A stretch of 64,000 nt of DNA, taken from assembly GCA_026390795.1 (NCBI GenBank), contig JAPLFG010000003.1, positions 372,001 through 436,000 on the forward strand. Reading direction: 5' to 3'. The notes under the pieces were generated by a model that did no database searches, was not told the origin of the DNA, and worked only from the letters and a program-made list of their open reading frames with translations. Origin of the DNA: Ignavibacteriales bacterium (lineage in GTDB: Bacteria; Bacteroidota; Ignavibacteria; Ignavibacteriales; Melioribacteraceae). Numbering within the stretch: position 1 is the first letter of the stretch; the number at the start of each line of letters is the position of its first letter. Made by a program: the position numbers and the translations under genes. Below are positions 35,336 to 52,461 of this stretch, piece by piece.

Positions 35336-38011
35336 CTACAATGATAATCCTGAGAATCTAATACCAAAAATTATTGTACGAGGTTGTGTAATAATCATAT
35401 TGAGTCGTTCAAATTTGTCGTTGTTTGTTAGATTCTCTACTTGAACAAATCCTGTTAGCACTTCAGTAATCTTTTGCGAAACACCCATATTAATTTTAAG
35501 ATATGAAGGATATGTTATTAGGTAACCTGATGGATATGGTTTTTTTGCTGGAACATATTTTCCGCTGTAAACATCAGCAAGAAAACCATAAAAATCTGCA
35601 GCTATCCACTCTCCAAATTGGAAAGCGCTCAGTGTTATTGTTGTACCTTCAATTGGAGTTACTTCAATATTTGTTGACAATGTATATTTAGGCTGTCCGT
35701 TTAATTGATCCCCAACCCTTGAACCGCCTGTATAAGTTGGCGCCAGTTGGGTTATAGTACTTTTATTTGTACCATAATTAATATTTATAGTTAACCAATC
35801 ATATGGGTGTGTAACAGCTTTGATTTCAAAACCTTCATTTTTAACTTCGTCCACATTCTGGTATTGATAAGTTGAGATATTTTGACTGTTTGACCCTAGA
35901 TTCACTTGTTCAATTAAATTTGTTGGTTTTTGGTTATAGTAAGTTAAGCTTAACGACAATATGCTTGAGTAATAAAGGTCTGCTCCAATCTCCCAACCTT
36001 TTTGTATCTGAGATTTTAAACCAGGATTTGGAAAAATAATGTATGTTGGGGCTACAGTACCTGCCACCTGACTGGCATCAGGAATAATAACCGATTGTCC
36101 CCATGCAATTCTTCCTTTCACCATCCATTTTTCCAATTCATATACGGCACTAATCCCTAAACGGGGTGACCAGGTATATGCATTGGTTGCCCCTGACGGG
36201 TTTTTATCTGCGCGCAATCCGCCTGTAAAGAAAAGAAAATCATTGTACGATAGTTGTGTCTGTCCAAAGAATCCTGAATTTATTACATAACCTGGATTTT
36301 GATCTACGAAATCATAATTATTTTTGTCAAGAACCTTAGACGAGAAGAATGGATGGGAATACTGAGACCAATCATATCCTAATGTTGTTGCCGAACCAAT
36401 CAATTCGAACAACTTTGCCTGATATGATGTGTTGTAAGATGCTGTCCAGCGTTCGGTTCTCGAATCAGTAATCGAATAAAGTTTTGTGGTTGTATTGGGA
36501 GTTCTATCGTAGTTTAATGAATTCAATGTATTATAGCCAAGAGTAAAATTGTGAGTCCAATTTTCAGCAGCTTTATAACTTAGATTAAGTGCATAGGTCT
36601 GGTATGCGCTTTGTGATGCAGTATTCGGTGCCGCATAAGTTTGTCCTATTGAGTTATACATTTTAATATAGATAGGATCCCATCCCCTTGTATTATTCCG
36701 TTTAGAATAATTTAGAGACAATCCTCCGGTCAGATCTCCAAGATGAAAATTTGTGGAACCGGTAAGGTTTAGTGCTTGTTCTTGAAAAAGCGGTATCCAT
36801 TGAGGTTCAGTGTTATAATTAACACCTAAATTATAACTGAAAATACTGTAACCACCGCTGGCATTTAATAAATATTCCTGGCCAAATGGTGAAGTACCAC
36901 TATTATACTTATTATCTATAGAAGTCGCTGTAACTTTCCCGGATAGTTTTGAGTCGCCAGATTTTCCATGTTTAGTAAAGATCTGCATAACACCACTAAT
37001 AGCGCCTGCACCATAGATAGTTGAAGCTTGAGGACCCGGAACTACCTCAACACGTTCAATAACACTGGGGTCCATATAGGTTATATATGCCGGGTCAGAT
37101 GCTTCTACTCCATCAATATAAACCTTAAGTGTGGAGGCGGCTCCTGAAACTGTAGATACTCCTCTTACAGAAAAAGCTCCGTAAGTTGTACCGACACCTT
37201 CATCTGTATATATAGCTCCTGGAACAGTTAAACGGACAAGGTCAGCAACATCGGTTGGATTTATATTTTCAATTTCACGTGCTGTTATAACGCTTATTGT
37301 ATTGGGAAGCTTTTTAACCAGTGTCGGGAGAACCGTACCGGTTGTGACTACAATTTCATTCATATTAATATCAGTTGGTTCAAGCTGTAAGTTTAGCCCC
37401 ACTGTTTGGTTTGCAGTAACATTAACCGTTGCTTCCTTTGATTTATAGCCTACACTTGAAACAACCAACGTATATTTGCCTTCACTAACATTATCAATTG
37501 TATAGTTACCTCCTATATTCGTAGAAGTACCATGGGTTGTTCCTTTAATTAGAACACTTGCCCCCACAACAGCTTCTTTTGTCCTTGAGTCGGTTACTTT
37601 TCCTTTTACAGAACCTGTTTCAACAGCCGTAACTAAATTTTCTTTTTGCCCATAAGATTTTTTTACAACAATCTGATCGTTGATTCTGTTGAAAGTTAAT
37701 CCGTAATCTTTAGCAAATACTTCAAGTATATTGTAGAGAGATTCGTCATCCACAATAACCGTTGCTTTTTCATTCAGGGGAAGTCCCTCTTCAAAAAAAA
37801 TGAATTTAAAATTTGTTTTACTTTCAATTATTTGCAATGCCTGTTCAAGCGTAACGCTTACTGCCTTTACACTCACTTTAATATCTCGAAGGTTCTGTCC
37901 CTCCGCAGGCGTTGTGGCAAAGAGTATATTGACAAGAATCCCCTGTAGAAGCAGCCCCAAGAATGAATATAATAAAGCCATTTTGATTGTCCGTATAATA
38001 TAATTTTTCAT
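35336..38011 (-). CDS. TonB-dependent receptor with STN signalling domain
   Basis: Outer-membrane active transporter of 891 residues. In order it has a signal sequence, an STN (secretin/TonB short N-terminal) domain at ~45-115 ('LEQALQIIESKTNFKFIFFE') and a carboxypeptidase-regulatory-like domain at ~130-215 ('GKVTDSRTKEAVVGASVLIKG'). A plug domain at ~225-340 ('IDGVEASDP', 'VERVEVVPGPQASTIYG') and a 22-strand barrel ending in a short hydrophobic tail follow. The STN domain and the upstream fecR and fecI-like genes indicate a FecA-type receptor that signals to a sigma factor. The substrate is not visible: there is no SusD partner, nor siderophore or B12 genes nearby. An ACAGGTG site precedes the ATG. 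Confidence 0.92.
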   Translation of the reverse strand: MKNYIIRTIKMALLYSFLGLLLQGILVNILFATTPAEGQNLRDIKVSVKAVSVTLEQALQIIESKTNFKFIFFEEGLPLNEKATVIVDDESLYNILEVFAKDYGLTFNRINDQIVVKKSYGQKENLVTAVETGSVKGKVTDSRTKEAVVGASVLIKGTTHGTSTNIGGNYTIDNVSEGKYTLVVSSVGYKSKEATVNVTANQTVGLNLQLEPTDINMNEIVVTTGTVLPTLVKKLPNTISVITAREIENINPTDVADLVRLTVPGAIYTDEGVGTTYGAFSVRGVSTVSGAASTLKVYIDGVEASDPAYITYMDPSVIERVEVVPGPQASTIYGAGAISGVMQIFTKHGKSGDSKLSGKVTATSIDNKYNSGTSPFGQEYLLNASGGYSIFSYNLGVNYNTEPQWIPLFQEQALNLTGSTNFHLGDLTGGLSLNYSKRNNTRGWDPIYIKMYNSIGQTYAAPNTASQSAYQTYALNLSYKAAENWTHNFTLGYNTLNSLNYDRTPNTTTKLYSITDSRTERWTASYNTSYQAKLFELIGSATTLGYDWSQYSHPFFSSKVLDKNNYDFVDQNPGYVINSGFFGQTQLSYNDFLFFTGGLRADKNPSGATNAYTWSPRLGISAVYELEKWMVKGRIAWGQSVIIPDASQVAGTVAPTYIIFPNPGLKSQIQKGWEIGADLYYSSILSLSLTYYNQKPTNLIEQVNLGSNSQNISTYQYQNVDEVKNEGFEIKAVTHPYDWLTININYGTNKSTITQLAPTYTGGSRVGDQLNGQPKYTLSTNIEVTPIEGTTITLSAFQFGEWIAADFYGFLADVYSGKYVPAKKPYPSGYLITYPSYLKINMGVSQKITEVLTGFVQVENLTNNDKFERLNMIITQPRTIIFGIRFSGLSL

Positions 38012-38059
38012 ATTTTACACCTGTCTGTGTTAAACATTTTGTTAATTATGTGTTTAGCA

Positions 38060-38100
38060 TTTTAAAGCCGTGACGATCTTCCCATCGTCATGGCTTTTTA
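38060..38100. terminator. Hairpin between fecR-like and receptor genes
   Basis: A 14-pair stem with one G-U (38064-38077 with 38084-38097) and a six-base loop. On the minus strand, the direction of the flanking genes, it is followed by TTTAAAA. On the plus strand it is followed by T5. It probably works as a partial terminator that separates the level of receptor mRNA from that of the regulators. Confidence 0.65.
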
Positions 38101-38144
38101 TTGACCCTCATAGATTTTCACTCCTCCTTAAATATGTTGATAAA

Positions 38145-39146
38145 TTATTTTTTGTAGAAAATGATCTTCTTGGTTTCGTTTTTCTCTTTAATATTTTTGC
38201 ATTGAAGCCCGGTTAACTTTTTAAGTGTCTCAGAGATTGTCCAGAGAGATTCGTTCTTGAAATTTGCGGTGATTTTGCGGTTGGAAAACGATGGATCTGT
38301 CAATTCGAATTTTATTCCGTAAGCTCTTTCCAGTTTCACCAGAACATTTTTAAATGGTTCTTTCTTGAACACCAGCACATTTTCTTTCCATCCGGTTGCT
38401 TCCTGCAAATCAAAATGTTCAACAGTGCCGATCTCGTTGTTCTTGTTATACAATAGCTGCTGATCCGGCTGAAGCATTACAATATTCTCAACTGTACCTG
38501 AATTTTCCTTAGAAACTTTAACGCTTCCGCTGACCAGAGAGACCGCAATGTTTTTTTCTTCTGGAAAGGCGCTTATATTGAATTTTGTACCCAACACAGT
38601 AGTTACAAGATTTCCGGTATGAACAACAAATGGTTTCGACGGGTTGTGGCTAATATTGAAATACGCTTCGCCCTTTAAATAGACCTCCCGCGAGTTCTTT
38701 CCGAATCCAATTGGATATTTTAATTTGCTGTCCGCGTTAAGAATTATTGTTGAGCCATCGGGTAGCGACAAAGTAAATTTTTGCCCCATCTCCGTAACAT
38801 TCTCATTCCATATAACAGCTTTCGGTTTTTTATTGAATATGCCGCTTACTATTAATAGAGTTGTACTTAGAGTAATGAATAAAATAATTGATGCTGCTGT
38901 TTTGATCAGATGAGGTGTGAATAATATTTTTTGAAATAAATTTCTATCGGTATTCTCTATCTTCTTCTTGATTTCAGAATATATTTTATCCTCCATGTTT
39001 TGTTTATCTCCTAAATCAAATGCATTCCAATTTGTGCTGGTATGTTGGAATGAATCTAAATATTTCTGAAACAACAACTCTTCATCGGGAAGGCATTCTC
39101 CTCTCAGGTACTTTTCAGCTAATTTTGTGAAATCTTGATTGTTCAT
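38145..39146 (-). CDS. FecR-family anti-sigma/sigma regulator
   Basis: Single-pass inner-membrane protein of 333 residues. A cytoplasmic N-terminal part (~1-78) would bind the sigma factor, one transmembrane helix (~80-104) follows, and the periplasmic FecR domain shows 'FTLSLPDGSTIILNADSKLKYP', 'REVYLKGEAYFNISHNPSKPF' and 'VHTGNLVTTVLGTKFNIS' (each quoted in part). The C-terminal DUF4974-type domain ('VLVKLERAYGIKFELTD') would contact the STN domain of the receptor. It lies directly between the fecI-like gene and the receptor gene, as in the Bacteroidota cell-surface signalling loci. A GAGAAG site precedes the ATG. Confidence 0.93.
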   Translation of the reverse strand: MNNQDFTKLAEKYLRGECLPDEELLFQKYLDSFQHTSTNWNAFDLGDKQNMEDKIYSEIKKKIENTDRNLFQKILFTPHLIKTAASIILFITLSTTLLIVSGIFNKKPKAVIWNENVTEMGQKFTLSLPDGSTIILNADSKLKYPIGFGKNSREVYLKGEAYFNISHNPSKPFVVHTGNLVTTVLGTKFNISAFPEEKNIAVSLVSGSVKVSKENSGTVENIVMLQPDQQLLYNKNNEIGTVEHFDLQEATGWKENVLVFKKEPFKNVLVKLERAYGIKFELTDPSFSNRKITANFKNESLWTISETLKKLTGLQCKNIKEKNETKKIIFYKK

Positions 39147-39287
39147 TATTTCTTCTCAAAAGTAATGGATTACTTATTTTTCGTTTTCTCTGTACTTAAG
39201 TACCGTAGAGAGATAATAAGTACTATCCGCTTTGTGTCATTCGGTAATATCTTTGCACGGAATCAATACAAGTAAGTGTTGGGGGTT

Positions 39288-39854
39288 TTACAAAAAAATT
39301 ATGTTGATACTTTTTAGCGATTTTCGGATGGTTTTTAATGCATTGGTAATTTGATTCTTTATCGTTTGAACGGAGAGATTAAGTTTAGAAGCGATTTCTT
39401 TATTGGATAATTCCTCATTCCGGCTTAACCGAAAAATTATTTTCCGTTGTTCCGGCAGGGACTCTATCAGGCTTTCGATACGATTATAAAGCTCTAAATA
39501 TTCCATCGATTCTTCAATTCTATTTTCTGATATGAAATCTTCGAATTCTGAATTATGTCGTTCTAATAGTTTTCGTTGCCGGAATTGTTTGAATATCTGG
39601 AATCTCACAGCCTGGTATAAATAAGCTGAAACATTATCGATCTGCAAAGATTTTCTTCTCGTCCATAAGTTTGTAAACATTTCCTGAATGATATCCTCAC
39701 AGATATCTTTTTCTCTAAGGACATTGTAGGCGTAAATATAAAGCTTGGACCAGTATCTTTTGTAAATCTCGTTGAATGCAATTTGATCATTATTTTTTGC
39801 CAGTTCGAATAAACCCCTATCCGAAAGATCAAATATTTTTTTATCGGGCAGCAT
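39288..39854 (-). CDS. FecI-like ECF RNA polymerase sigma factor
   Basis: Sigma-70 family ECF factor of 188 residues of the Bacteroidota FecI-like group. Region 2 is at ~20-90 ('FNEIYKRYWSKLYIYAYNVL', 'DIIQEMFTNLWTRR') and region 4 at ~130-180 ('LPEQRKIIFRLSRNEELSNKEIA', quoted in part, with helix-turn-helix 'LNLSVQTIKNQI'). It would be held by the neighbouring FecR-like protein and released when the receptor binds substrate, then activate the receptor gene. The 141 bases to fecR contain no clear terminator. Confidence 0.92.
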   Translation of the reverse strand: MLPDKKIFDLSDRGLFELAKNNDQIAFNEIYKRYWSKLYIYAYNVLREKDICEDIIQEMFTNLWTRRKSLQIDNVSAYLYQAVRFQIFKQFRQRKLLERHNSEFEDFISENRIEESMEYLELYNRIESLIESLPEQRKIIFRLSRNEELSNKEIASKLNLSVQTIKNQITNALKTIRKSLKSINIIFL

Positions 39855-40166: not shown

Positions 40167-42731
40167 TCAAAATGTAGTTTTGATGGAAAGAACAGTTATA
40201 TCGTCGTACTGCGGCACTTTACCCCGGAATTCATTTAAATCATTAAGTAAAATCTTTTCTATTTGAGAACAGTTATGATTGAAATTTTCCACTAATAATT
40301 TTTCCAATCTTGCTTCGCCGTAAAACTGATTTGCCGAATTCATCAATTCTGTAACACCATCTGAATAAATGAAGAATAGGTCTTCCCTTTGAAGTTGTAA
40401 AGATTCTTCTTCAAGCGATGAATTGAATAGTTCACCTTTGTCTAAGCCGACTCCCATTCCACCCGATGCAAATGTATCGCACTCGCCGTTACGTATTCTG
40501 ATCATTCCCGGATGACCTGCTCTACAGAATGTTACGCGTTTTGTATCAAGATCGAATAGTGCAAGTGACACAGTAATAAACCATCCCCTTTCGATGTTTT
40601 CATAAATATTTTTGTTTACATCAATTAAAACATCTCGGGGTGATTTTCCATCGGTGCAATAAAGACGAATCATGGTTTGAAGTTTGGACATGTAGAACGA
40701 TGCGCTTAATCCTTTTCCGGAAACATCTCCGACAACAACAAACAATTTCTTCTCCGAAATTTTAATCAGATCAAAATAATCTCCGCCAACATGCATAGCG
40801 GGAATCATCTTGCCGGAAAAATCGAGTCCTTCTATTTTTGGAAAAACTTTTGGCAGTAATGTTTCTTGAATCTTCCTCGCATTTTCCAAATCGCGTTCCA
40901 TCTTTTGTTTTTCAGTTTCGGATTCATATAACCTTGCATTCTCAATAGAAACCGCAACCTGGTTAGCTGCTGAAATTAACAATTCAATATCTTTACCGGA
41001 AAACCGGGAACCGGATTGTTTTAATCCAAACAACAGTAAACCAATCACCTTATGTTTAATAAATAACGGTATGATTGTAAAAATATCTTCAACAATTAGC
41101 CGGTCGGCATCATCTTCCCAAATTGTCCGGAAATCTTGCCTTTCAATTATGGGTTCCAATCCGATTAAACTACGTTCTAAAAGAAATTTCTCTATAATAT
41201 TTTTTTTATCATCTAACCGGAACCATGAATTCGATATACCCTGATGTCTTGCAAGTTTATAAACATCTTCGTCATCGCGCAGCAGCAAACCGAATGTTTT
41301 AATTCTCAGCGACTTAACGAACATATCCAAAGTTGAATCAAGTATATTTTCTTGTCCAACAATACTCGCTACTTCGTTGCTAAAAACTAACAATCGTGAT
41401 TGAAATGCGAACTGTTCAGGATAAAACTTTTCTGTAAGGTAATCCTGAAATTTATCTTTCGTTGACTGGAAAACAACTGCAAATAAAACAAAAACCATTC
41501 CGGCAATTACCCCTTGATATTCCGTTCCAATTGCGGCACTTATTGACTGCCCGATCAGATAAATAATCAAGAAATAAATTCCTGCCAGCGCAACAGTTGC
41601 AGCCCCGTATACAATTGTATTCTTAACAACTTCACTTACATCCATTAGCGAGTATCGAAAAATAGAATAACCAAATGCTATAGGAAGCAACGCAATAAGA
41701 ATAACCGGAGTGAAATAATATGGATTGTTAAATATTACACCGCCAATCCTGGCCGCAAGTGTAAATGTGTAGATAAGCGCAATTACAGAAATTAGGTACG
41801 AAACTAGAATTACAAAGATGGCGTTTCGTTCCTGTTTTGTTTTCAACTTCACATAATTAATAAATAGAAATACCAGACCGATTACTAAACCGCAACCGAT
41901 AAGAAAAGAGATTATAGTTGAAATCGTTTCATACAGTTTTCCGTTTCCTTTTTGATAAACAAAATAGATCTTCAATGAGATTATGACAGCGAAGATAATA
42001 TAAGGACCAAAATTTAATAGTCTATTGAACCATTTCTTTTTGACCAGTGATAATTCCTTGGGGAAAAGAGAAAAGAAACGGACTAATAAAAACGGAAAGA
42101 ATACTCCTCCTAAAGTCCACAATGCATCAACAGTAAAAAGAAGAATTACGTTTTGAAAAATCGGGTTCGGAACCTGCTGCCCGCGATATAGCATGTCTGC
42201 CATTGCAAATAAAGTGGCGGCAATTCCAACTCTATAAAATGCATTCTGAGTTCTTCCTTCCGATTTTGCCATCACAACAATGAAACCGACTATCATCCAA
42301 ATAAAAGAGAGCAGCGCAAATGCCAGTCCGCTGAAGTTTATCAATTTTTTTACAAGAATTTTGACTTCAAGTATCTTGCCGTTCTTAAGAATTTTGTATG
42401 TAGCGTAATCGCCCGCTTGAATACGATCTAATGTGCGTGAGGCGACAAGGTTATTTATTAATTTAACGCCATCTATGGCAAGAAGCTGATCACCATTTCT
42501 AATACCGGCTTGCCATGTTACACCATTCTCTTTTACCTGATCAAAATAAACCTTGATAGAATCACCGTCAGAGGATTTTTTTTCGATCCAAAGACATTCA
42601 TCGTTTGATTGTGCCGTAACCTCAAATATGAAAAAGAAATTCGCTATTCCGATTAGTAAGAGAATCACAGTTGATATAAGAATAATTTTCTTCTGATTCT
42701 TGACCCAAAATTTTTTGAATATCTCTTTCAT
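40167..42731 (-). CDS. Membrane PP2C-type (SpoIIE) phosphatase with PDZ-like and GAF domains
   Basis: An 854-residue sensor phosphatase. One N-terminal helix, a periplasmic PDZ-like segment (~70-120, 'AGIRNGDQLLAIDGVKL') and seven or so transmembrane helices (~135-420) precede a GAF domain (~430-590). A linker helix with 'DLENARKIQETLLPKVFP' leads to the SpoIIE/PP2C domain. All four metal-site acidic motifs are present (GGDYFD, GDVSGKG, YSDGV, YDDIT). It should dephosphorylate a STAS anti-anti-sigma protein. It is last in a five-gene run, two bases after the previous phosphatase gene. Confidence 0.88.
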   Translation of the reverse strand: MKEIFKKFWVKNQKKIILISTVILLLIGIANFFFIFEVTAQSNDECLWIEKKSSDGDSIKVYFDQVKENGVTWQAGIRNGDQLLAIDGVKLINNLVASRTLDRIQAGDYATYKILKNGKILEVKILVKKLINFSGLAFALLSFIWMIVGFIVVMAKSEGRTQNAFYRVGIAATLFAMADMLYRGQQVPNPIFQNVILLFTVDALWTLGGVFFPFLLVRFFSLFPKELSLVKKKWFNRLLNFGPYIIFAVIISLKIYFVYQKGNGKLYETISTIISFLIGCGLVIGLVFLFINYVKLKTKQERNAIFVILVSYLISVIALIYTFTLAARIGGVIFNNPYYFTPVILIALLPIAFGYSIFRYSLMDVSEVVKNTIVYGAATVALAGIYFLIIYLIGQSISAAIGTEYQGVIAGMVFVLFAVVFQSTKDKFQDYLTEKFYPEQFAFQSRLLVFSNEVASIVGQENILDSTLDMFVKSLRIKTFGLLLRDDEDVYKLARHQGISNSWFRLDDKKNIIEKFLLERSLIGLEPIIERQDFRTIWEDDADRLIVEDIFTIIPLFIKHKVIGLLLFGLKQSGSRFSGKDIELLISAANQVAVSIENARLYESETEKQKMERDLENARKIQETLLPKVFPKIEGLDFSGKMIPAMHVGGDYFDLIKISEKKLFVVVGDVSGKGLSASFYMSKLQTMIRLYCTDGKSPRDVLIDVNKNIYENIERGWFITVSLALFDLDTKRVTFCRAGHPGMIRIRNGECDTFASGGMGVGLDKGELFNSSLEEESLQLQREDLFFIYSDGVTELMNSANQFYGEARLEKLLVENFNHNCSQIEKILLNDLNEFRGKVPQYDDITVLSIKTTF

Positions 42732-42732
42732 A

Positions 42733-44412
42733 TCATTTTACCTTTATAACCAAACATGTGATGTCGTCGGATTGCTCAGCGCCGTGAGTATAATCTTCGA
42801 CACTAAATCGAATGTGTGAAAGAATGTTGTGAGAATTTTCTTGATATTTTTGTCGGGCAAGTTCTTCAAGTCTTTCATCTGAATATTCTTCCCACTTATC
42901 ATTCATTGCTTCCGTAATACCGTCTGTAAAAAGAACGACTGCATCTCCGGTCTGAAGTTGTACGACTTCGGAAATATACGGTACAACAGTTTGCATGACC
43001 CCTAAAATCATTCCGCCTTTCCTAAGTTTTGTAATTTCACCGTTGCGAATTAAAAGCGGCGGATTATGACCGGCGTTAACGTAATTGATCTCTTTCTTCT
43101 CGTTATCGATAATTCCCCAGAAAAACGTTATGAAGCTTCCCATTGTTGTATTCTCCGCAACAAGATCATTCATAAGGTTGGTGGCAATATCAAGCGGGAG
43201 TTTCATTTTACAAATTGATTTCAAGAATGCCTGAATATTAGCCATCAATAAAGCCGCAGGTACACCTTTGCCGGAGACATCCGCTATTGCAAATAAAACA
43301 TTGTTGTCGTCAAGTTTAACAATGTCATAATAATCCCCGCCAACCATACGCGCAGATTTATTAAATGCGTCTATTTCAAAATTGGAAAGTGCCGGGATTG
43401 ATTTTGGGAGTAAATTATTTTGGATGTTGCGGGCAGTCTCAAGATCTTTTTCGAGTCTTTGTTTATCAAGTGTTTCTTTAAACAAACGCGCATTCTCAAT
43501 CGAAATAATTGCAAGACTTCCTACCGAAGAGACAAATTCGATGTCGGATTGAGTGTACTGGAGTTCGTTAATACGTTTACCAAGAAGAATTAATCCTTTT
43601 GTTTCTCCTTTGATTTGCATCGGCACAATTAGGTCTACACCAACCTCGGCAAATGGTTTAAGTTCATCAACAAATTCAAATCGAGTCATTGGCTTTATAA
43701 ATTGGTTTGTATCACAACTTTTAAGAACAGTCCTAAGATGTGTCTCGTCAAATCGATTTTCTAAAAAACTTAGAATATTCCCGGCACATGATATTACGGA
43801 ATATTTTGAAACCATCATCTGCCCGATTAAAGAATAGACAAGCATTTTACTTACCATTTCAATTTGTAAAATGCCGCTAAACTCTTTGCTCAAATCAAAA
43901 AGAGAACTAAGCTGGTTTACTTTAGCGTCGAGATTCCGGTTTGCTCTTTTTAATTTCTCAACAACAATTGAATTTTCTATAGCGGTTGAACCAACATTCA
44001 GAATCGTTTTAAGAAAATTGATGTCTTCTATATCGTACGGTTTATTTGTTAATCTCTGTCCGAGAATAATCATTCCCTTGAGTCCATCCGTTGAATGGAT
44101 TTCTTCAAGAACGGAAAAATTATTTTGTTTTACAAAATCATTAATAAGCTCATCCGATTTATATTCGCTGAAAGAGACTTTCGGAAAATTTTCTATAATT
44201 AATTTTGGAATTCCCTTTACGGCGCTCACTTCAAGATTATTTTCTTCATTGAAGAGCGCAATTAATCCTTTTGTTGTATGAAATTTTCCGAAACATGTAA
44301 GCAGAATATTATTGAGTGTGAAATTTAAGTCCAGCGTCGAATTTATAAGATTGCTGAAATCTACAAGAGCAGAAAAATTTCTAAGCGCAGCATTGTTGTC
44401 TAATTGTTGCAT
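42733..44412 (-). CDS. Cytosolic PP2C-type (SpoIIE) phosphatase with two GAF domains
   Basis: A 559-residue soluble protein: GAF-like domain at ~10-155, coiled coil, second GAF-like domain at ~180-310, then the linker 'DLETARNIQNNLLPKSIP' and a SpoIIE/PP2C phosphatase domain. The metal-site motifs GGDYYD, ADVSGKG, FTDGI and SDDIT are intact, so it should be active. With no transmembrane segment it would read a cytosolic signal through GAF. It lies between the RsbW-like kinase gene (5 bases upstream) and the PDZ-type phosphatase gene. Confidence 0.9.
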   Translation of the reverse strand: MQQLDNNAALRNFSALVDFSNLINSTLDLNFTLNNILLTCFGKFHTTKGLIALFNEENNLEVSAVKGIPKLIIENFPKVSFSEYKSDELINDFVKQNNFSVLEEIHSTDGLKGMIILGQRLTNKPYDIEDINFLKTILNVGSTAIENSIVVEKLKRANRNLDAKVNQLSSLFDLSKEFSGILQIEMVSKMLVYSLIGQMMVSKYSVISCAGNILSFLENRFDETHLRTVLKSCDTNQFIKPMTRFEFVDELKPFAEVGVDLIVPMQIKGETKGLILLGKRINELQYTQSDIEFVSSVGSLAIISIENARLFKETLDKQRLEKDLETARNIQNNLLPKSIPALSNFEIDAFNKSARMVGGDYYDIVKLDDNNVLFAIADVSGKGVPAALLMANIQAFLKSICKMKLPLDIATNLMNDLVAENTTMGSFITFFWGIIDNEKKEINYVNAGHNPPLLIRNGEITKLRKGGMILGVMQTVVPYISEVVQLQTGDAVVLFTDGITEAMNDKWEEYSDERLEELARQKYQENSHNILSHIRFSVEDYTHGAEQSDDITCLVIKVK

Positions 44413-44417
44413 GACAA

Positions 44418-44852
44418 TTAGGAGAGATATTTAACTAAAATAACTTGGTTTTTATTTCCGGTAAGAGTAGAGTACTTAACTTCATCCATAAGCTTTTTCA
44501 TAAGAAACATGCCAAGCCCGCCGGCTCGTTTCTGCTTATAATAATGAATTAAGTCGGGTTCCGGCACACGTGCTGGATCAAAGTGATTACCTTCGTCGGT
44601 TATAGCAATAATAAATTTGCTCTCTTCAAACTTGATGGAAATGATAATATTGCCGTCGGGAGAATATTTATAGGCGTGTTTAATAATATTTGTACATGCT
44701 TCATCTACAGCAAGAATTATTTTACCGATTGTTTCATCGGTAAATCCGATTTCTTCTGCCGCAGACCTCGTAAACTCTCTTATCAAAGCAAGATTGTCGG
44801 TTGTACTTTTGATAGAAAGTTCTTTCTCAAATATTTTGTTAGAAGAATTCAA
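44418..44852 (-). CDS. RsbW/SpoIIAB-like anti-sigma serine kinase (HATPase)
   Basis: A 144-residue GHKL-fold kinase: N box 'AVDEACTNIIKHAY' (48-61), G1 box 'TDEGNHFDP' (85-93) and G2 box 'GGLGMFLMKKLMDEV' (111-125). Such kinases bind either a target protein or a STAS antagonist, which they phosphorylate on Ser. The start is TTG at 44852, two bases after the STAS stop, with an AAGGA ribosome-binding site inside the STAS gene end. The STAS-kinase-phosphatase order is the standard partner-switch arrangement. No sigma-B-type factor is next to it, so the output partner is unknown. Confidence 0.9.
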   Translation of the reverse strand: MNSSNKIFEKELSIKSTTDNLALIREFTRSAAEEIGFTDETIGKIILAVDEACTNIIKHAYKYSPDGNIIISIKFEESKFIIAITDEGNHFDPARVPEPDLIHYYKQKRAGGLGMFLMKKLMDEVKYSTLTGNKNQVILVKYLS

Positions 44853-44854
44853 GC

Positions 44855-45208
44855 TTATCCTTGAGAATCAAATTTTTGAAGAGCTTCTTTTTCTTCTTTG
44901 AAGAATTCGTATAAAATCGGAAAGCCGAGTAGATCGAAAATGTTATAAACATTTTCTTTCATGTTAGAGAACTTGATATCACCGCTGTTTTCTCTCATTG
45001 TTTCTACGTAAGCCATAAAAACACCAAGCCCGGCGCTGCTTATGTACTTCAACTCGTCAAAATTGACCACAACTCGAAACTGACGCTGGTCGAGTAATTT
45101 GTTGAAGATATTTTCAAGCTCCGGCGCGGTATGAGCATCAAGATACCCTTTCACATCAATCACACTCACGGAACCGACTCCTCGTAAGTTGACATTGAAA
45201 TCCGCCAT
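44855..45208 (-). CDS. STAS-domain anti-sigma factor antagonist
   Basis: A 117-residue single STAS domain with the phosphorylation-site segment 'YISSAGLGVF'; the phosphorylated Ser would be S57 or S58. In partner switching the unphosphorylated form binds the RsbW-like kinase, and the kinase inactivates it by phosphorylation. It is encoded directly before the kinase and after a membrane SpoIIE phosphatase. A GGAGTTATTTA stretch precedes the ATG. The Glu/Lys-rich tail after ~residue 100 is an extra helix. Confidence 0.92.
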   Translation of the reverse strand: MADFNVNLRGVGSVSVIDVKGYLDAHTAPELENIFNKLLDQRQFRVVVNFDELKYISSAGLGVFMAYVETMRENSGDIKFSNMKENVYNIFDLLGFPILYEFFKEEKEALQKFDSQG

Positions 45209-45227
45209 TAAATAACTCCTGCTATTA

Positions 45228-47276
45228 TTATTTTTTTTGATTCCACTTAAACATTACTAAAGTAATATCATCATGCTGGGAATGACTTTGGGAAAAAACG
45301 GTTAATTCTTTCATTAAATTATTCGAAATCTTATCCAGGTTTTCATTGCAATTTTTTATTAATAAAGAATCTAGCCTGTCATATCCAAAGTCTTCTTCCA
45401 ATTTATTTTTCGCTTCCGGAATACCATCGGAATAACAAATTACAATATCATTATTCTTCAATTGAATTTCCATTTCTTTTATTGAAGAAGTAAATCCAAT
45501 TGTGTAATCGAGTCCTAACCCGATACCTGCAGGTTGAAAACGTTCAATCTTTTCAGAACTGCAGATATGAATAGGTGTATGTCCCGCTCTTGCAAAATTA
45601 AGAACGCCGGACTTTTTATTTATAACACCGTATATAGCAGTAACGAAATTTTTTTTATCGAGGCTCTCTTTTAAAATATTATTTACATTAATCAATAGTT
45701 CTCGAGGATTAAATATTATCTTGGAAAGTGATTCAAAAATTCCTTTCACTTCCGCCATAATAAATGCGGCACTTATTCCTTTACCGGAAACATCGGCAAC
45801 TACAAATCCAAGCCGATCGTTTTCAAGTTCAAAGAAGTCATAGTAATCGCCGCCGACTTCAAATGCCGGGACAAAAAGAGCAGATATTTGCAGCTGGTCG
45901 GAAGTTGGAACGGTGCTCGGAAGAATTTTTCGCTGTATATCGCGGGCAACATCGAACTCTTTTTCAAGACGTTCTTTTTCGATTGACTCTTCAATCAATT
46001 TTGCATTCTCAAGAGCAACAGCAGCATAATCTGCAAAAGCCTGCACTGCTTTTTTCTCATCCGGATCAAAATTATTATCGCGCTGTCTCGCGGCAAAAAG
46101 ATATCCGTTTACATTTCCATGAACTTTCAGAGGAGCAATTGCAATAGATTTGAATCTCTGATCGTTATTTTTTATTACCGGATTGATTTCGTCATATTGA
46201 ATTATTTCTATTGTGTCATAATCGTTTTCGCCGGAACCAAATAATTGATTCGTAATTCTATCAGCATCAACAAATCCGATATTATGAACAGAGCCGAGTT
46301 CGATGTCATTGCCTTTCTTGGTTATTAACCACGCTGAATCTGCGTTGCATACCCGTGCGGTAATAGTCGTAATAGTTTCCGCCAGTTCCTTAAAATCGAA
46401 AACTTGAGTAACAAGTTTTGTAAGATCCATCATCGAAGAAACTTCATCAGCTTTGCGGTCGAACGCTTCGGCAGTAGGCAAATGGAAAAGAGTTGTAAAA
46501 AATATTACGCCAAAATTTATTATGCCGTAAATCATTAATAAACTTATAAAGGTTTGAAGCCCGGGTGAAAAAGCGAAGAGTATTTTTTGCATTATACTGG
46601 TCTCATCATTTACAATGGAGTAATCCAGAGCAAATAATATTGAGAGAACAACCGATATCACTAGTAAGTAATATTTTTGCCGTTTGGTTAAGAACGCAAT
46701 CCAAGAAACGCGTAAAGAGTTTAAAAATATTAATACAATTGTGACAACGGTAAATGATTCTTTGGGGTAGCTAAAAGTTGGATCGAACTTTAAAAAAATA
46801 TTTGAGATAAAACTTAGACCAAAGAATGCAAGCATTGTATTGAAGTATGTACTCGGATCTTTCTTTTGACGCAGGAAAGATAATTCACGGAAAGTGGAAA
46901 AAATGTAAACGATGGCACATATAAAAACAAAGTTCAGCAGCACAGAGAAAAGCGAATTAAAAAAACCAATTCCGTTTCCGCTGCTTTGGCTCCCTAAGAG
47001 CGCCTTTACTATCGATACGGTGAAAAAAATTAGAGCGGCTAATATCCCGGCGTTCAGCACTAATGAAAGAGGCGAATCTACTTTCGAATTGAGAAAACCG
47101 GATACATAATTGAAAGAGAAAAATACGGTAATAAAAACAAGTATTTCGTTCCCGATGAACAACAATATTGTATCGTGCTGAGGAAAAATCAGATTGAACA
47201 AGAAAAGGAGAATGAATACAATAACTGCGTTCTCAAGTCCCCGTGCACGTGTTAATATTTTTAATCTGCTTTGCAT
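45228..47276 (-). CDS. Membrane PP2C-type (SpoIIE) phosphatase with GAF domain
   Basis: A 682-residue protein with about eight transmembrane helices in the first ~285 residues, a GAF domain (~295-430) and the linker 'EFDVARDIQRKILPSTVP'. A C-terminal SpoIIE phosphatase domain carries all metal-site motifs (GGDYYD, ADVSGKG, YSDGI, HDDIT). The membrane part has no recognisable ligand-binding fold and may sense membrane state. An ATG at 47276 is used here; a TTG at 47285 in the same frame is an alternative three codons upstream. It is the first gene of the partner-switch run, 20 bases before the STAS gene. Confidence 0.88.
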   Translation of the reverse strand: MQSRLKILTRARGLENAVIVFILLFLFNLIFPQHDTILLFIGNEILVFITVFFSFNYVSGFLNSKVDSPLSLVLNAGILAALIFFTVSIVKALLGSQSSGNGIGFFNSLFSVLLNFVFICAIVYIFSTFRELSFLRQKKDPSTYFNTMLAFFGLSFISNIFLKFDPTFSYPKESFTVVTIVLIFLNSLRVSWIAFLTKRQKYYLLVISVVLSILFALDYSIVNDETSIMQKILFAFSPGLQTFISLLMIYGIINFGVIFFTTLFHLPTAEAFDRKADEVSSMMDLTKLVTQVFDFKELAETITTITARVCNADSAWLITKKGNDIELGSVHNIGFVDADRITNQLFGSGENDYDTIEIIQYDEINPVIKNNDQRFKSIAIAPLKVHGNVNGYLFAARQRDNNFDPDEKKAVQAFADYAAVALENAKLIEESIEKERLEKEFDVARDIQRKILPSTVPTSDQLQISALFVPAFEVGGDYYDFFELENDRLGFVVADVSGKGISAAFIMAEVKGIFESLSKIIFNPRELLINVNNILKESLDKKNFVTAIYGVINKKSGVLNFARAGHTPIHICSSEKIERFQPAGIGLGLDYTIGFTSSIKEMEIQLKNNDIVICYSDGIPEAKNKLEEDFGYDRLDSLLIKNCNENLDKISNNLMKELTVFSQSHSQHDDITLVMFKWNQKK

Positions 47277-47351
47277 TTTTCTCAATTGTTCTCTGATATT
47301 AGGGAAAAATTATACTATACAAAACATGTGATTCTTATTTGGCTTTCTATG

Positions 47352-48638
47352 CTAGTGTTTTTTTAGAGTATCAGCTTTAATCTTATTATTCGATTTTTTT
47401 AGTCCTTTGGTCACTCTCATTATTTCTTCTGTTATCTTCTTTTTTAAGGAATCGTTCATTTCAGGATTAAATTTTCTTGACAAAGAATCCATCTTCTCCC
47501 CAAATTTTTCCCAATCCTTTACTTGTGTTTTTGAGAGCATCTCCATGGTACTGTTTACAATTTCATAAGGATTAATAATTATTTCCGGTGTTTCGGGGGC
47601 GTTGGGAATTCTTGAATCTCTAGAACTATGGGTACTATGTTTTTTATTTCCAAAATAAAACGAAATATTTTTCATTTTCCGTGCAGCATCTCTCAATTTA
47701 ACTCTTATGCTGTCGTTAACTTCTCTAGTAAATTTCATTGTTTCCATTGGAACAACAATCTTGAAAGAGTTCGAATCAATATTAAAAGAAAAATCATCTG
47801 CACCCGGAATGCTCTTGACCTTCGGAACCGTCGGCGCACTTTCGTACTGAACATCTAAATTTGGTATTGGCGGAGCAATTGTATATTTACTTTTTTCGAG
47901 ATCGTTTAAATGTTGATTAAACTTTTCCTGGTTCCATTTGAAATATGTCCTAGCTACCGTATCGGGAGTGATTAAATAATATTCATTTTGCGGAATTGCT
48001 TTGGCTGAAGTAATTAGATCAGCAAACTTTTTTTTATCACTAAGATCATAATGTTCCGTAAAAAGTTCTTTTGATTTGGATTGGTTGACCTTTTGTGCAA
48101 ATGAAATTAAATCGGCAAGAACTGCTTGCTGGATATCGGCAATCTTAGGATTTACGGCATATGTGTTTTTCTCATTGACTAATACGGAAGAATAAATTTC
48201 TTTTTTATATGAATTTAATATTGAATCCGCTTTTGCTTTTTGACTTTCGTTCATCCCCATATAATTTACAAAGGTTTCGTAGTTCTTTGTAGATGAATTG
48301 AAATCCGCCGGTTTAATAACAAAAGTATTATTGCCGGGTCTATCCTCTGAAATTACAAGAACTTTATTTTTTTCTTTATCAAGCGGTAAACTATTATATA
48401 AAGCAAAATTGAATATATCTTCTTCTGAAATATTAGTCTGGGATAAGAGCGGTTTTAGATTTTCGGCATAAAAGGAAAGCAAATTATTTTTTACATCTGC
48501 AATTGATTTATTTATTTCTTGTTTCTTGTGTTTAAAAAAGAACATGAGTGCAACCGATAGGACAATTAAAACAACAAATGGAAAATATTTTTTGACTTTT
48601 GCAAAGCCAAGAAATTTATCTTTCTGTTGTTCACTCAT
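47352..48638 (-). CDS. Unknown single-pass membrane protein coupled to the ECF sigma gene
   Basis: A 428-residue protein with a ~17-residue basic cytoplasmic tail, one transmembrane helix (YFPFVVLIVLSVALMFFF) and a large, probably periplasmic, mostly helical domain rich in Lys, Asn and Ser. One segment ('MGMNESQKAKADSILNSYKKE') resembles the first helix of Spy/CpxP-type LTxxQ proteins, but the match is weak. The C-terminal half is charged and low in hydrophobics. The gene begins one base after the stop of the ECF sigma gene, the place usually held by an anti-sigma factor. It has no zinc-binding anti-sigma motif and only a very short cytoplasmic part. Function unknown. Confidence 0.7.
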   Translation of the reverse strand: MSEQQKDKFLGFAKVKKYFPFVVLIVLSVALMFFFKHKKQEINKSIADVKNNLLSFYAENLKPLLSQTNISEEDIFNFALYNSLPLDKEKNKVLVISEDRPGNNTFVIKPADFNSSTKNYETFVNYMGMNESQKAKADSILNSYKKEIYSSVLVNEKNTYAVNPKIADIQQAVLADLISFAQKVNQSKSKELFTEHYDLSDKKKFADLITSAKAIPQNEYYLITPDTVARTYFKWNQEKFNQHLNDLEKSKYTIAPPIPNLDVQYESAPTVPKVKSIPGADDFSFNIDSNSFKIVVPMETMKFTREVNDSIRVKLRDAARKMKNISFYFGNKKHSTHSSRDSRIPNAPETPEIIINPYEIVNSTMEMLSKTQVKDWEKFGEKMDSLSRKFNPEMNDSLKKKITEEIMRVTKGLKKSNNKIKADTLKKH

Positions 48639-48639
48639 A

Positions 48640-49242
48640 TTAATATGCTCTTAACTCTTTTTGGTATGGTTCTAGGATTATCTTTAGACTTTCACGTGCC
48701 CGGAAAATTCTTGATTTTATAGTACCGACTTCAATACCTAATTGATCGGCAATCTCTTTATAACTCAATCCATCGATATCTCTTAGAACAAGCGGTATTC
48801 TAAGTTTCTCAGGTAATTTTGCAATCGATCCTCTAACTAACTGAGGAATATCTACATCTTCAGAAAATGGTCCCGTCCCGTATTCGCTGTCCGAATCTTT
48901 AATGGGAACAAAAATACTGCGAACTCTTTTCTTTCTTAAATAGTCCCTGCACTTATTAACCGTAATTCTGTATAGCCAAGTTGTAAACTTTGATTCAAAA
49001 CGAAATTCATTTAGTTTGTGATAAACACTTATAAAAACATCTTGAGAAATATCATCAACAAACTCGGTGTCACCTAAAGTAAGAAAAACTAAATTTCTAA
49101 CTTTTTCTTTGTGTTTGAGCACAAGGATTCTAAATGTTGATTCCTCTCCATTTATAAACGAACGGATAAGAGTAAAGTCTTCGTCCCTTTCTCCTTTCGA
49201 TTCGCTAAAATCAAATTGGTCTTGTTCTTTTACTACTTCCAT
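48640..49242 (-). CDS. RpoE-like ECF RNA polymerase sigma factor
   Basis: A 200-residue ECF sigma factor with a ~25-residue acidic N-terminal extension. Region 2 is at ~30-100 ('DISQDVFISVYHKLNEF', 'TTWLYRITVNKCRDYLRKKR') and region 4 at ~135-190 ('LPEKLRIPLVLRDIDGLSYKEIA', with helix-turn-helix 'LGIEVGTIKSRIFRARE'). It is closer to the RpoE/SigW group than to the FecI-like factor at 39.3 kb. The DNA just upstream matches the sigma-E promoter consensus, suggesting autoregulation. The gene is followed after one base by an unknown membrane protein and then by the partner-switch genes. Confidence 0.93.
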   Translation of the reverse strand: MEVVKEQDQFDFSESKGERDEDFTLIRSFINGEESTFRILVLKHKEKVRNLVFLTLGDTEFVDDISQDVFISVYHKLNEFRFESKFTTWLYRITVNKCRDYLRKKRVRSIFVPIKDSDSEYGTGPFSEDVDIPQLVRGSIAKLPEKLRIPLVLRDIDGLSYKEIADQLGIEVGTIKSRIFRARESLKIILEPYQKELRAY

Positions 49243-49246
49243 GCTT

Positions 49247-49274
49247 TTAGACGAGAATTATAGTTTATTGTTCC
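49247..49274 (-). promoter_or_regulatory. Candidate ECF (sigma-E-type) autoregulatory promoter
   Basis: On the minus strand GGAACAA (49274-49268), a 15-base spacer, and GTCTAA (49252-49247) match the RpoE consensus GGAACnn-N15-GTCTAA. The sigma gene's ATG begins 4 bases after the -10, so transcription would begin at or next to the start codon. Confidence 0.6.
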
Positions 49275-49475
49275 TCAAAAGCTAATGATTTACACAAAAT
49301 AAAATTTGGTAATAATGAGACTTAAAATAACTTTCTTTTTACTTTTCTATTCAATAATTTAGTTGCCAATATAAATATTTATGAATAATTATATCCATTC
49401 CTCATTCTTTATTTTCAGACAGGATTGAATAGTATAAAATTGATAACAAAACTAAATTAACCTTGAGGAGAAAAC

Positions 49476-49814
49476 ATGAAGGTCAAACAAGTCGAAAAAT
49501 ATGGAGCCGTAGTAGTCGAGTTAAAAGGAAACGTTATGGGCGGACCCGAGGCCCAAGAATTTAGCGATCTTCTTCATAAATTACTTGATGATGATAAAAA
49601 GAATGTAATTATTGATTTATCTGAGACAAAATTTATGAATAGTTCCGGACTTGGAATGCTTATTAGCGGATATACTACCGTAAAAAATGGCGGCGGTATC
49701 ATGAAATTGGCAAATGCTACAGAAAAAATCGAGAGTCTTCTTGTAATAACAAAACTAATTACTATATTCGAACATTATACTTCTGTTAATGATGCGGTTG
49801 AAAGTTTTAAATAA
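49476..49814 (+). CDS. Second STAS-domain anti-sigma factor antagonist
   Basis: A 112-residue STAS domain protein with the phosphoacceptor segment 'KFMNSSGLGMLISGY' (S56 or S57). It is divergent from the ECF sigma gene, separated by 233 bases, and preceded by a strong TTGAGGAGAAAAC ribosome-binding site. It may compete with the first STAS protein for the RsbW-like kinase, since only one such kinase is in the window. It is the only partner-switch component here on the plus strand and has its own terminator, so it can be expressed independently. Confidence 0.92.
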   Translation: MKVKQVEKYGAVVVELKGNVMGGPEAQEFSDLLHKLLDDDKKNVIIDLSETKFMNSSGLGMLISGYTTVKNGGGIMKLANATEKIESLLVITKLITIFEHYTSVNDAVESFK

Positions 49815-49829
49815 TTATTAATTTTTTAC

Positions 49830-49857
49830 AACTCCGGTAATATTTTGCCGGAGTTTT
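49830..49857 (+). terminator. Terminator after the second STAS gene
   Basis: AACTCCGG (49830-49837) pairs with CCGGAGTT (49848-49855) over a ten-base loop and is followed by a short T4 run. It lies 15 bases after the stop and before purA. Confidence 0.7.
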
Positions 49858-49885
49858 ACCCACCTAAATTAGATCCGAGGCATAA

Positions 49886-51154
<1,269 letters not shown>

Positions 51155-51237
51155 AATCTTTTTTACCCTTTCTTTTTTTTAATTAGCGAAAACAGTTTCG
51201 TAAATTTCATTGGGTTAATTTCTATAAGGAGATTCAA

Positions 51238-52461
51238 ATGAAAATGACCGGCGGACCTGCTTCTATGAATATTAAACTTGTTTTAATAGTGATAGGAGCT
51301 GCAATTGCTTTCGGAACTCTTTACTATACGCAAAACATAGTTGGTAAACTTCAGGAACGCGAGAAAGAAATTGTAAAATTGTACGCAAGTAGTTTGGAGT
51401 ACATTGCCAATACAGAGTCTCCCAATTCCGATCTTACTTTTATATTCCAAAATATAATTCAGAGAATTGATTTTCCTCTTATTCTAACAGATGGCAACGG
51501 TGTGGTTACCACTACAGTCGCCGGAAGCGGATACAAAAACATTCCTCATAAGCCTGACCTAAAAGGAATTGAACTCAAAAAATTTCTCTCAGATAAAGTG
51601 AAACTTCTGGCTTCTGAGCAAATGCCGATTGATATAAAGTTTCCAGATGGAAAAGTACACCAGAAAATTTATTTTGGTGATTCAGAAATTATTACACGGT
51701 TAAGGTATTATCCATTTCTTCAGATAATTTTCGCACTTCTCTTTTTAATTATTGCCTATTCGAGTTTTAGCTACATAAAAAGAAGCGAACAGAGCAACAT
51801 TTGGGTTGGGATGTCGAAGGAAACGGCACATCAACTTGGTACTCCAATCTCCAGCTTAATGGGATGGAATGAAATGTTAAAAATGAATTATGCAAATCAA
51901 GATAAAGTTCTGGATATATCGGATGAAATTAACAGCGATTTAACCCGGCTAAATAAAATTACAAAACGATTTTCCAAGATCGGTTCTAAACCAGAACTTC
52001 GTGATGAATCCCCTTTCTTAACAATAGAACGTGTTGCAAATTATTTTCAGAGACGGCTGCCTCAGCTGGGTAAAAATGTATTAATTGGTCTTCAAGGCGA
52101 CAAAGAATTAAAAGCCAAAATGAATAACGAGTTGTTTGAGTGGGTAATAGAAAATTTAATCAAGAATGCGTTGGACGCCATTGAAATCCAGGAAGGCAAA
52201 ATTAATTTCAGTATTAGTGAGAACCACGGTAAAATTGAAATTGAAGTTTCGGATAACGGGAAAGGAATTGAAGCCGGCAGAAAAAAAGATATTTTCCGTC
52301 CCGGATATAGCACAAAACGCCGCGGCTGGGGTTTGGGTTTAAGTCTTTCCAAAAGAATAATTGAGGATTATCACGAAGGGAAAATTTTTGTGAAAGAATC
52401 TATAATTAACGAAGGAACTATTTTTAAAATAATTCTAAATGAAGCTGAAAAAATTACATGA
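51238..52461 (+). CDS. Orphan membrane sensor histidine kinase (HQLGTP type)
   Basis: A 407-residue kinase with two transmembrane helices (~12-31 and ~157-178) flanking a ~125-residue extracytoplasmic PAS-like sensor ('PLILTDGNGVV'). The cytoplasmic part has an H box 'KETAHQLGTPISSL' with the phosphoacceptor H198, an N box 'VIENLIKNALDAIE', and G boxes 'DNGKGIEAG' and 'GWGLGLSLSKRIIEDYH'. The H box differs from the common HELRTP by GTP in place of RTP. No HAMP domain is visible and no response regulator gene is adjacent. The start has a strong AAGGAGATTCAA ribosome-binding site. Confidence 0.9.
   Translation: MKMTGGPASMNIKLVLIVIGAAIAFGTLYYTQNIVGKLQEREKEIVKLYASSLEYIANTESPNSDLTFIFQNIIQRIDFPLILTDGNGVVTTTVAGSGYKNIPHKPDLKGIELKKFLSDKVKLLASEQMPIDIKFPDGKVHQKIYFGDSEIITRLRYYPFLQIIFALLFLIIAYSSFSYIKRSEQSNIWVGMSKETAHQLGTPISSLMGWNEMLKMNYANQDKVLDISDEINSDLTRLNKITKRFSKIGSKPELRDESPFLTIERVANYFQRRLPQLGKNVLIGLQGDKELKAKMNNELFEWVIENLIKNALDAIEIQEGKINFSISENHGKIEIEVSDNGKGIEAGRKKDIFRPGYSTKRRGWGLGLSLSKRIIEDYHEGKIFVKESIINEGTIFKIILNEAEKIT

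Follow-up and report, generated by a model that had tools for sequence, protein, structure and literature searches.

We analysed a window of 64,000 nucleotides (nt) from an Ignavibacteriales bacterium of the family Melioribacteraceae (assembly GCA_026390795.1, contig JAPLFG010000003.1, positions 372,001 to 436,000 of the forward strand; the window is this whole stretch), in which a partner-switch set of SpoIIE phosphatases, STAS proteins and an RsbW-like kinase lies together with an extracytoplasmic function (ECF) sigma factor and a membrane protein, here called UNK. The original prediction, made for positions 40167 to 49814, had listed three SpoIIE phosphatases, one RsbW-like kinase, two STAS proteins, one ECF sigma factor and an unknown membrane protein. 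An open reading frame (ORF) check of the window recovered all eight genes intact and with unchanged coordinates, and Pfam domains were assigned to every product but UNK, for which no Pfam family was found above cut-off. The comparison with related genomes suggests that this ECF sigma factor lost its normal brake after joining the kinase-phosphatase relay, and that the relay became the new brake.

Genes and motifs of the block

Seven of the genes are transcribed in the same direction on the minus strand, from 49242 down to 40167, nearly contiguously and with small gaps, as one operon. The first codes for the ECF sigma factor of 200 amino acids (aa), the proposed output of the system (48640..49242; Pfam Sigma70_r2 1e-14, Sigma70_r4_2 9e-18). 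It is followed by UNK (47352..48638; 428 aa), a protein with one transmembrane (TM) segment starting at residue 17, by a membrane GAF-SpoIIE phosphatase (45228..47285; 685 aa) whose hydrophobic N-terminal stretches were read by eye, by the RsbV-like STAS protein 1 (STAS1; 44855..45208) with the motif YISSAGL and Ser57/Ser58, and by the RsbW-like kinase (44418..44852; HATPase_c_2, PF13581, 9e-30), the proposed anti-sigma factor of the ECF. A soluble GAF-SpoIIE phosphatase (42733..44412; 559 aa) and a SpoIIE phosphatase with a PDZ-like part, helices and GAF (40167..42731; 854 aa) complete the operon. STAS protein 2 (STAS2; 49476..49814, plus strand; FMNSSGL motif, Ser56) adjoins purA, and both are transcribed divergently from the operon. 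The block is not a chance assembly, since its seven co-directional genes are nearly contiguous and their arrangement is kept across the whole family.

The SpoIIE domain was recognised far above the Pfam cut-off in the three phosphatases (E values of 3e-40, 9e-46 and 7e-40) and the STAS domain in two proteins (4e-14 and 2e-13). The metal motifs GGD, DVSGKG, SDG/TDG and DD, which had been described as intact in all three phosphatases, can indeed be read directly in the window sequence, as can the kinase boxes. The finer domain assignments held in part: the third phosphatase is of SpoIIE type, but its PDZ match stays under the Pfam cut-off (24.7 against 27 bits), and of the two GAF domains ascribed to the soluble phosphatase one is only touched by Pfam, also under cut-off, and the second has no Pfam match. 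The NCBIfam models RsbW and SpoIIAB match the kinase under their cut-offs, and RpoE, the best NCBIfam model for the ECF, likewise scores under its own.

The set has the parts of an RsbU/RsbV/RsbW-type switch, i.e. a SpoIIE phosphatase with metal motifs, HATPase kinase boxes and a STAS serine, except for a sigma-B/F/G-type target, the sigma factor of the operon being an ECF. The latter has the sigma2 and sigma4 domains only and a GGAAC/CGTC-type promoter that is autoregulatory as judged from its sequence. This promoter, GGAAC-N16-CGTCTAA, lies at 49247..49274 on the minus strand. With its -10 box ending 4 nt short of the ECF start codon, it should yield transcripts that are almost or fully leaderless.

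The original prediction had noted that no sigma-B-type target is present in the block, and this was extended to the whole genome (4.08 Mb, 5 contigs). The domain search gave 12 SpoIIE, 9 STAS and 22 Sigma70_r2 matches and 3 strong RsbW-like proteins. Only 2 of the 22 Sigma70_r2 frames exceed 250 aa; the RpoD/RpoS models score best on them, under those models' cut-offs, and the SigB/F/G model gave 116 and 114 bits against a cut-off of 234. Since both frames are RpoD/RpoS-like and far under the SigB/F/G cut-off, a separate sigma-B-type partner was not found among the 22 matches of this genome. The ECF, already named as a possible output, is the best candidate among the sigma factors for the output of the partner switch.

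Linkage of the ECF to the cassette in the family

The kinase was found in 75 of the 79 family genomes, and the family loci include Melioribacter, Stygiobacter and Melioribacteraceae. In the window, and likewise in 65 of 74 kinase loci, the ECF stands just upstream on the same strand. The remaining 9 loci end at a contig edge; three family genomes with no kinase match have ECF-UNK-phosphatase at a contig end, and one more gave neither gene. Over the 79 genomes, UNK, the membrane phosphatase or both follow closely after the ECF gene in all 69 readable loci, so that the gene-order comparison proposed at the outset bears out a conserved block. UNK directly follows the ECF in 58 of these 69 loci and is gone in the other 11, where the ECF stop and the phosphatase start are 1-151 nt apart. 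Among the 65 family loci holding the ECF, STAS2 is present in 62 and the PDZ-type phosphatase in 47, some of the others being cut by locus or contig ends.

Length and partial-ORF filters were applied to the motif counts, as well as to the position comparison and the distance correlations given below. YISSAGL occurs in 68 of 69 family STAS1 proteins, and FMNSSGL or FMNSTGL in 54 of 63 STAS2 proteins, the pattern having matched something else in the remaining 9. In the kinase, the N, G1 and G2 patterns were all matched in 63 of 73 proteins, and G1 together with G2 in 73/73. All four metal-motif patterns were found in 63/67 soluble, 55/68 membrane and 31/51 PDZ-type phosphatases, and the misses mostly concern one pattern.

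The pair and the cassette in other lineages

A search for UNK over 119 genomes of the class gave 39 positives, 12 of the 14 from the own family and 27 of the 105 others. The orthologous ECF stands beside UNK in all 27 non-family loci. These ECFs are regarded as orthologues because of their scores and their position in the tree: against the family hidden Markov model (HMM) 26 of them reach 165-205 bits and the own-genome paralogues at most 102 bits (19 of 21 scored), and all 91 pair ECFs form one clade without 18 own paralogues (FastTree, local support 0.835; 1 of 66 ECFs was dropped from the trees as shorter than 180 aa). Four more non-family ECFs (at least 133 bits) have no UNK match; three of them precede a protein that starts, by eye, like an anti-sigma domain (ASD), and one is cut by the contig end.

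In a six-frame check of the 27 non-family pair loci, some on contigs of only 3-6 kb, no SpoIIE or STAS relative was found, and the only two RsbW matches were weak (18-19 bits) and lay in long frames. The phosphatase is present in 25 of these 27 genomes, on another contig or at least about 150 kb away, as compared by hand. ORF calling may mask a gene under a longer overlapping ORF, as with the ECF of L070; presence and absence were redone in six frames and upheld. The possibility, raised in the original prediction, that the sigma factor and the membrane protein stand apart from the phosphatase genes in relatives is hence realised in the 27 loci of other families, but these keep the ASD, and in the own family the two are adjacent in every readable locus. 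The other half of that objection, a sigma-B-type partner encoded elsewhere, finds no counterpart in the genome searched.

The cassette of phosphatase, STAS protein and kinase also occurs by itself. Relatives of the membrane phosphatase at E <= 1e-60 occur in 79 of the 119 class genomes; 65 of the 79 are non-family genomes, and 37 loci from these 65 were read. STAS1 is present in 37/37 of them and the kinase in 36/37 (L226 is cut); six-frame reading gave UNK in 0/37, and the orthologous ECF is found in 0/37. The only ECFs near the cassette in these 37 loci, in L242 and L243, score 65-67 bits and lie several genes downstream; these two loci, of family f8, have a different ECF a few genes downstream of the same cassette, perhaps an independent association. 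In three unlinked loci the cassette neighbours are MatE, PrmC, TPR and MFS genes, and the cassette without the orthologous ECF was also met in further named genomes, including KSB1 and Calditrichota. A good STAS2 match was observed in 2 of the 37 unlinked loci (L219-L255; 131 and 116 bits), the rest scoring at most 45 bits.

An intermediate state (INTERMEDIATE), with the ECF, an ASD-bearing UNK and the cassette in the same order, was found in 13 of 80 named loci, among them Ignavibacterium and Ignavibacteriaceae; one further ASD-bearing linked locus, L347, has two genes inserted. The TM segment of the intermediate UNK starts at residue 83-89. The gap between UNK and the phosphatase is 123-375 nt in the intermediates (median 182, n=13), compared with a median of 18 nt in the family (n=53), and in this gap of the intermediates an ECF-type motif was found in 0/13. 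Intermediate and family ECFs group in one clade of 80 tips with local support 0.76; support is 0.67 for the family by itself and 0.99 for the family with two f11 ECFs. In one intermediate, L357 (CP053447.1), the reading of the membrane phosphatase is split into two ORFs of 454 and 181 aa, a possible frameshift. In L390 a relative of UNK directly precedes the membrane phosphatase, with no recognised ECF in the preceding gene.

Living lineages hold the pair and the cassette separate, joined with the ASD, joined without the ASD and joined without UNK. The simplest order, under moderate tree support, would be separate, then joined, then ASD lost, then UNK lost. That pair and cassette might be neighbours with no functional link, one hitch-hiking on the other, would agree with their separation in other families; this reading is very hard to credit next to an adjacency without exception in the readable loci of 79 family genomes, a preceding ECF promoter, gaps that shrink and the short distances left where UNK has gone.

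UNK as the remnant of a transmembrane anti-sigma factor

The original prediction had left UNK as an unknown membrane protein, a description that is corrected here. Outside the family, 79-122 residues precede the TM segment in 27/27 proteins, compared with 4-43 in the family (n=56); the median TM start is residue 91 (n=27, range 80-123) and 16 (n=56, range 5-44), respectively, after 2 of 58 UNK proteins shorter than 250 aa were dropped. Pfam recognised zf-HC2 at E <= 0.1 in 7 of 8 non-family N-termini, one of them above cut-off, and RskA_N and RseA_N once each, under cut-off. In the intermediates, zf-HC2 was matched in 4/4 N-termini, two above cut-off. A profile of 11 UNK N-termini found as its four best PDB matches RsiW (E 0.0012), MucA (0.03), a second MucA (0.042) deposited as 'RseA N-terminal domain', and RslA (0.086); the matches after these four are unrelated.

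The structural models are consistent with this picture. The model of the L357 UNK (mean pLDDT 60) has helices at 2-16, 21-33, 35-54 and 64-72, then the TM helix, and its comparison with RsiW, MucA and RslA gave Foldseek probabilities of 0.69-0.97, although the aligned part covers little of the query and the E values are 0.8-4. In the model of the window UNK (mean pLDDT 67) the TM helix stands alone with no helix before it, the stub being of low confidence. No PDB match at E <= 0.001 was found for its periplasmic part in the structure search. The N-terminal cytoplasmic four-helix domain that defines Class I ASDs is present in the UNK orthologues outside the family and is missing from the window UNK. 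On the evidence of sequence and model, UNK outside the family belongs to the ordinary ASD-bearing transmembrane anti-sigma factors, and the window UNK is what remains of the one that belonged to this ECF, after deletion of the cytoplasmic ASD.

UNK might still act as an anti-sigma factor through its short cytoplasmic stub, in a class II or CnrY-like manner, and its place directly after the ECF in most family loci would suit such a role. We consider this improbable: fewer than 20 aa precede the TM segment in 54 of 56 family proteins and 26 and 43 aa in the remaining two, the modelled stub has no helix of its own, and the whole gene is dispensed with in 11 of the 69 loci.

Promoter and probable target of the ECF

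Of 63 family loci, 48 have GGAAC-N16/17-CGTCTAA ahead of the ECF; the reverse strand gave 0/63, and mononucleotide shuffling of the family set likewise 0. Of 26 pair loci outside the family, 23 have GGAAC-N15..18-CGTC close to the ECF start, and GGAAC..CGTC is present in all 14 ASD-bearing linked loci (L347 included), at 209 nt upstream in one and shortly after the called start in two. In 38 of the 48 family loci with the motif, GGAAC begins 30-33 nt before the called ECF start. The strict promoter was missed in 15/63 family loci, most of which, by eye, keep the CGTC box with an altered -35 box; L208 has no CGTC box, and in L041 the upstream region is cut by the called start, the exact motif being present. 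By eye, six of the eleven loci without UNK (L191, L192, L199, L215, L216 and L218) have no strict -35 box and keep the CGTC box. In the 4.08 Mb of the own genome the exact motif occurs once, at the operon; the backward control pattern has 3 matches there.

A gene for a GIN-domain (DUF2807) lipoprotein, far from the operon, carries the ECF motif (G000:C1:345848-346492; loci L292-L321). This motif stands about 23 nt before the start of the unlinked gene in 3/3 genomes of one genus. A match to the lipoprotein is present in 67 of the 79 family genomes, and the motif was counted in the best 30 of 68 places read, which are related sequences from several genera and not independent. NNAAC-N15..18-CGTC occurs in 30/30 of these between 200 nt before and 60 nt after the called start, and the stricter NGAAC..CGTC[AT] in 15/30, with 0 on the reverse strand; the shuffling expectations are 0.5 and 0.07, respectively. 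Within the genus g2 the gene shares the operon's contig in G009, some 4 kb ahead of the ECF, and in G182, some 7 kb ahead of the kinase; two other g2 genomes carry it on a different contig. The GIN-domain lipoprotein gene is a probable member of the ECF regulon. It is the only target claimed, because the motif scans stay close to or under their controls and because this gene recurs, first in 3/3 and then in 30/30. A regulon drawn from the motif alone was rejected: one-mismatch matches numbered 13, 4 and 6 in three genomes, compared with 21, 19 and 10 for the control. With a promoter before the operon and a related motif before the lipoprotein gene, the ECF seems functional.

Proposed mechanism

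Comparison between genomes demonstrated the promoter and the lipoprotein motif, as well as module joining, loss of the ASD and the family's constant linkage of ECF and cassette. The economical reading is that the kinase holds the ECF, since the latter keeps its promoter and its target, has lost the ASD and is attached to an RsbW-type kinase with a STAS partner; we consider that the RsbW-like kinase probably replaced the ASD as the anti-sigma factor of this ECF. The fuller account, that this replacement came about by module fusion and that its steps survive in living lineages, we accept with only slightly more than even confidence.

The ancestral ECF would have been held by the transmembrane anti-sigma protein, and the ECF/anti-sigma pair would then have been joined to a separate phosphatase-STAS-kinase cassette. 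In the family, the ASD would have been lost and the kinase would have taken over as cytoplasmic anti-sigma factor. In the resting state the kinase would bind the ECF and maintain phosphorylation of the STAS protein(s). Any one of the three phosphatases, whether membrane/GAF, soluble GAF or PDZ/GAF, would relay a signal by stripping the phosphate, the dephosphorylated STAS would capture the kinase, and the freed ECF would transcribe its own operon, giving positive feedback and fresh kinase, as well as the GIN-domain lipoprotein gene. Here we infer that the kinase binds the ECF, that STAS is phosphorylated and that all three phosphatases act on the same STAS protein(s).

Several observations weigh against a kinase that holds the ECF. 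The cassette occurs in other lineages without a sigma factor beside it, and its kinase must therefore have had another target there. The partial distance correlation between ECF and kinase, given PurA and the histidine kinase (HK) over 43 genomes, is 0.56, and the ECF correlates more with two phosphatases (0.70 and 0.74) and with STAS1 (0.69), so that the kinase is not singled out as its partner. After identity matching, no clear family-specific gain in conservation was found in the ECF linker, considered as a possible new surface for binding the kinase, its pairwise identities in two matched bins being 0.27 vs 0.245 and 0.438 vs 0.362. Family-specific conserved positions of the kinase number only two. 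The exact promoter motif, summed over 8 genomes, has 8 matches, near the 6 of the backward control; with totals so close, what speaks for the motif is the position of its matches, 7 of the 8 being the operon promoter and the eighth lying at another place in G039; G165 has no match. To our knowledge, ECFs are without the sigma region that SpoIIAB uses on sigma-F. The comparison of family with non-family ECFs also flagged 34 differing positions, which carry no conclusion because the groups differ in overall divergence.

In the chief rival explanation, the cassette kept its older target and the ECF merely transcribes it, being itself unregulated or held by an unlinked anti-sigma factor. This rival is on balance unlikely, yet has to be taken seriously: it agrees with the 37 non-family loci and the further genomes, KSB1 and Calditrichota among them, in which the cassette is found without the orthologous ECF, with the ECF-type promoter of the operon, and with a distance correlation that does not favour the kinase. 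Under it, however, an autoregulated ECF would be left with no known brake in the very family whose ECF always has the cassette attached (no search was aimed at unlinked anti-sigma genes), and it explains neither why ASD loss is confined to linked lineages nor why 11 loci have lost UNK.

Relation to known systems

In Bacillus, Sigma-B and the SpoIIAA/AB/E system combine a SpoIIE phosphatase, a STAS serine and a HATPase kinase in one operon, and the promoter is autoregulated and driven by the sigma factor. The window operon resembles Sigma-B/RsbU-RsbV-RsbW and SpoIIAA/AB/E in having phosphatase, STAS protein with target serine and HATPase kinase in one operon, and is unlike them in its ECF in place of a sigma-B/F-type factor, its three phosphatases and its remnant of an anti-sigma membrane protein. 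UNK orthologues outside the family are of the same type as the Class I (ASD) anti-sigma factors RsiW, MucA and RslA, unlike the window UNK, which has no sigma-binding domain.

Statements on the following systems refer to the sections of the cited papers drawn on here. In Bordetella, the ECF BtrS is encoded in the same locus as BtrUVW, so that an ECF gene again shares a locus with a SpoIIE/STAS/kinase set; BtrS is, however, inhibited by BtrA, a secreted anti-sigma factor, the mechanism by which BtrUVW act on secretion is unknown, there are intervening genes, and those sections mention no lost ASD (PMC7498569). The PhyR-NepR-EcfG system likewise is partner switching that ends on an ECF sigma factor, and is called unique; it works by sigma mimicry through a response regulator and, as described in those sections, has no SpoIIE, STAS or HATPase anti-sigma kinase (PMC8103513). 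Rhodobacter capsulatus RbaV/RbaW/RbaY is also an RsbVW-type set whose sigma target is not known: the cognate sigma factor of RbaW was not found, two ECFs having been tried by two-hybrid, and linkage to an ECF operon is not mentioned in the sections used (PMC3999984). An unusual sigma factor with an antagonist domain is described as well (PMC10733313). RsbW-like proteins served as negative controls for ECF binding, such an interaction not having been described according to a paper of 2020 (PMC7406223). In the open-access literature searched, we found no report of an RsbW-type anti-sigma factor of an ECF, or of this operon.

If the kinase does hold the ECF, the two main ways of restraining alternative sigma factors would be exchangeable, and these genomes would keep a step-by-step record of one restraint replacing another. 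It would also show concretely what a partner switch lacking a sigma factor can become attached to, and provide a testable promoter and target gene.

Neighbouring genes

On the plus strand (49476-52461), STAS2, purA and a histidine-kinase-like gene adjoin the operon in most family loci. On the other side, adjoining the block on the minus strand (35336-39854), we observed by eye a second ECF sigma factor (39288-39854), a FecR-like gene (38145-39146) and a TonB-dependent receptor (35336-38011). Such an ECF/FecR-like/TonB-dependent receptor group is a typical cell-surface signalling set of Bacteroidota, and as a set it does not lie beside the block in 11 family gene maps.

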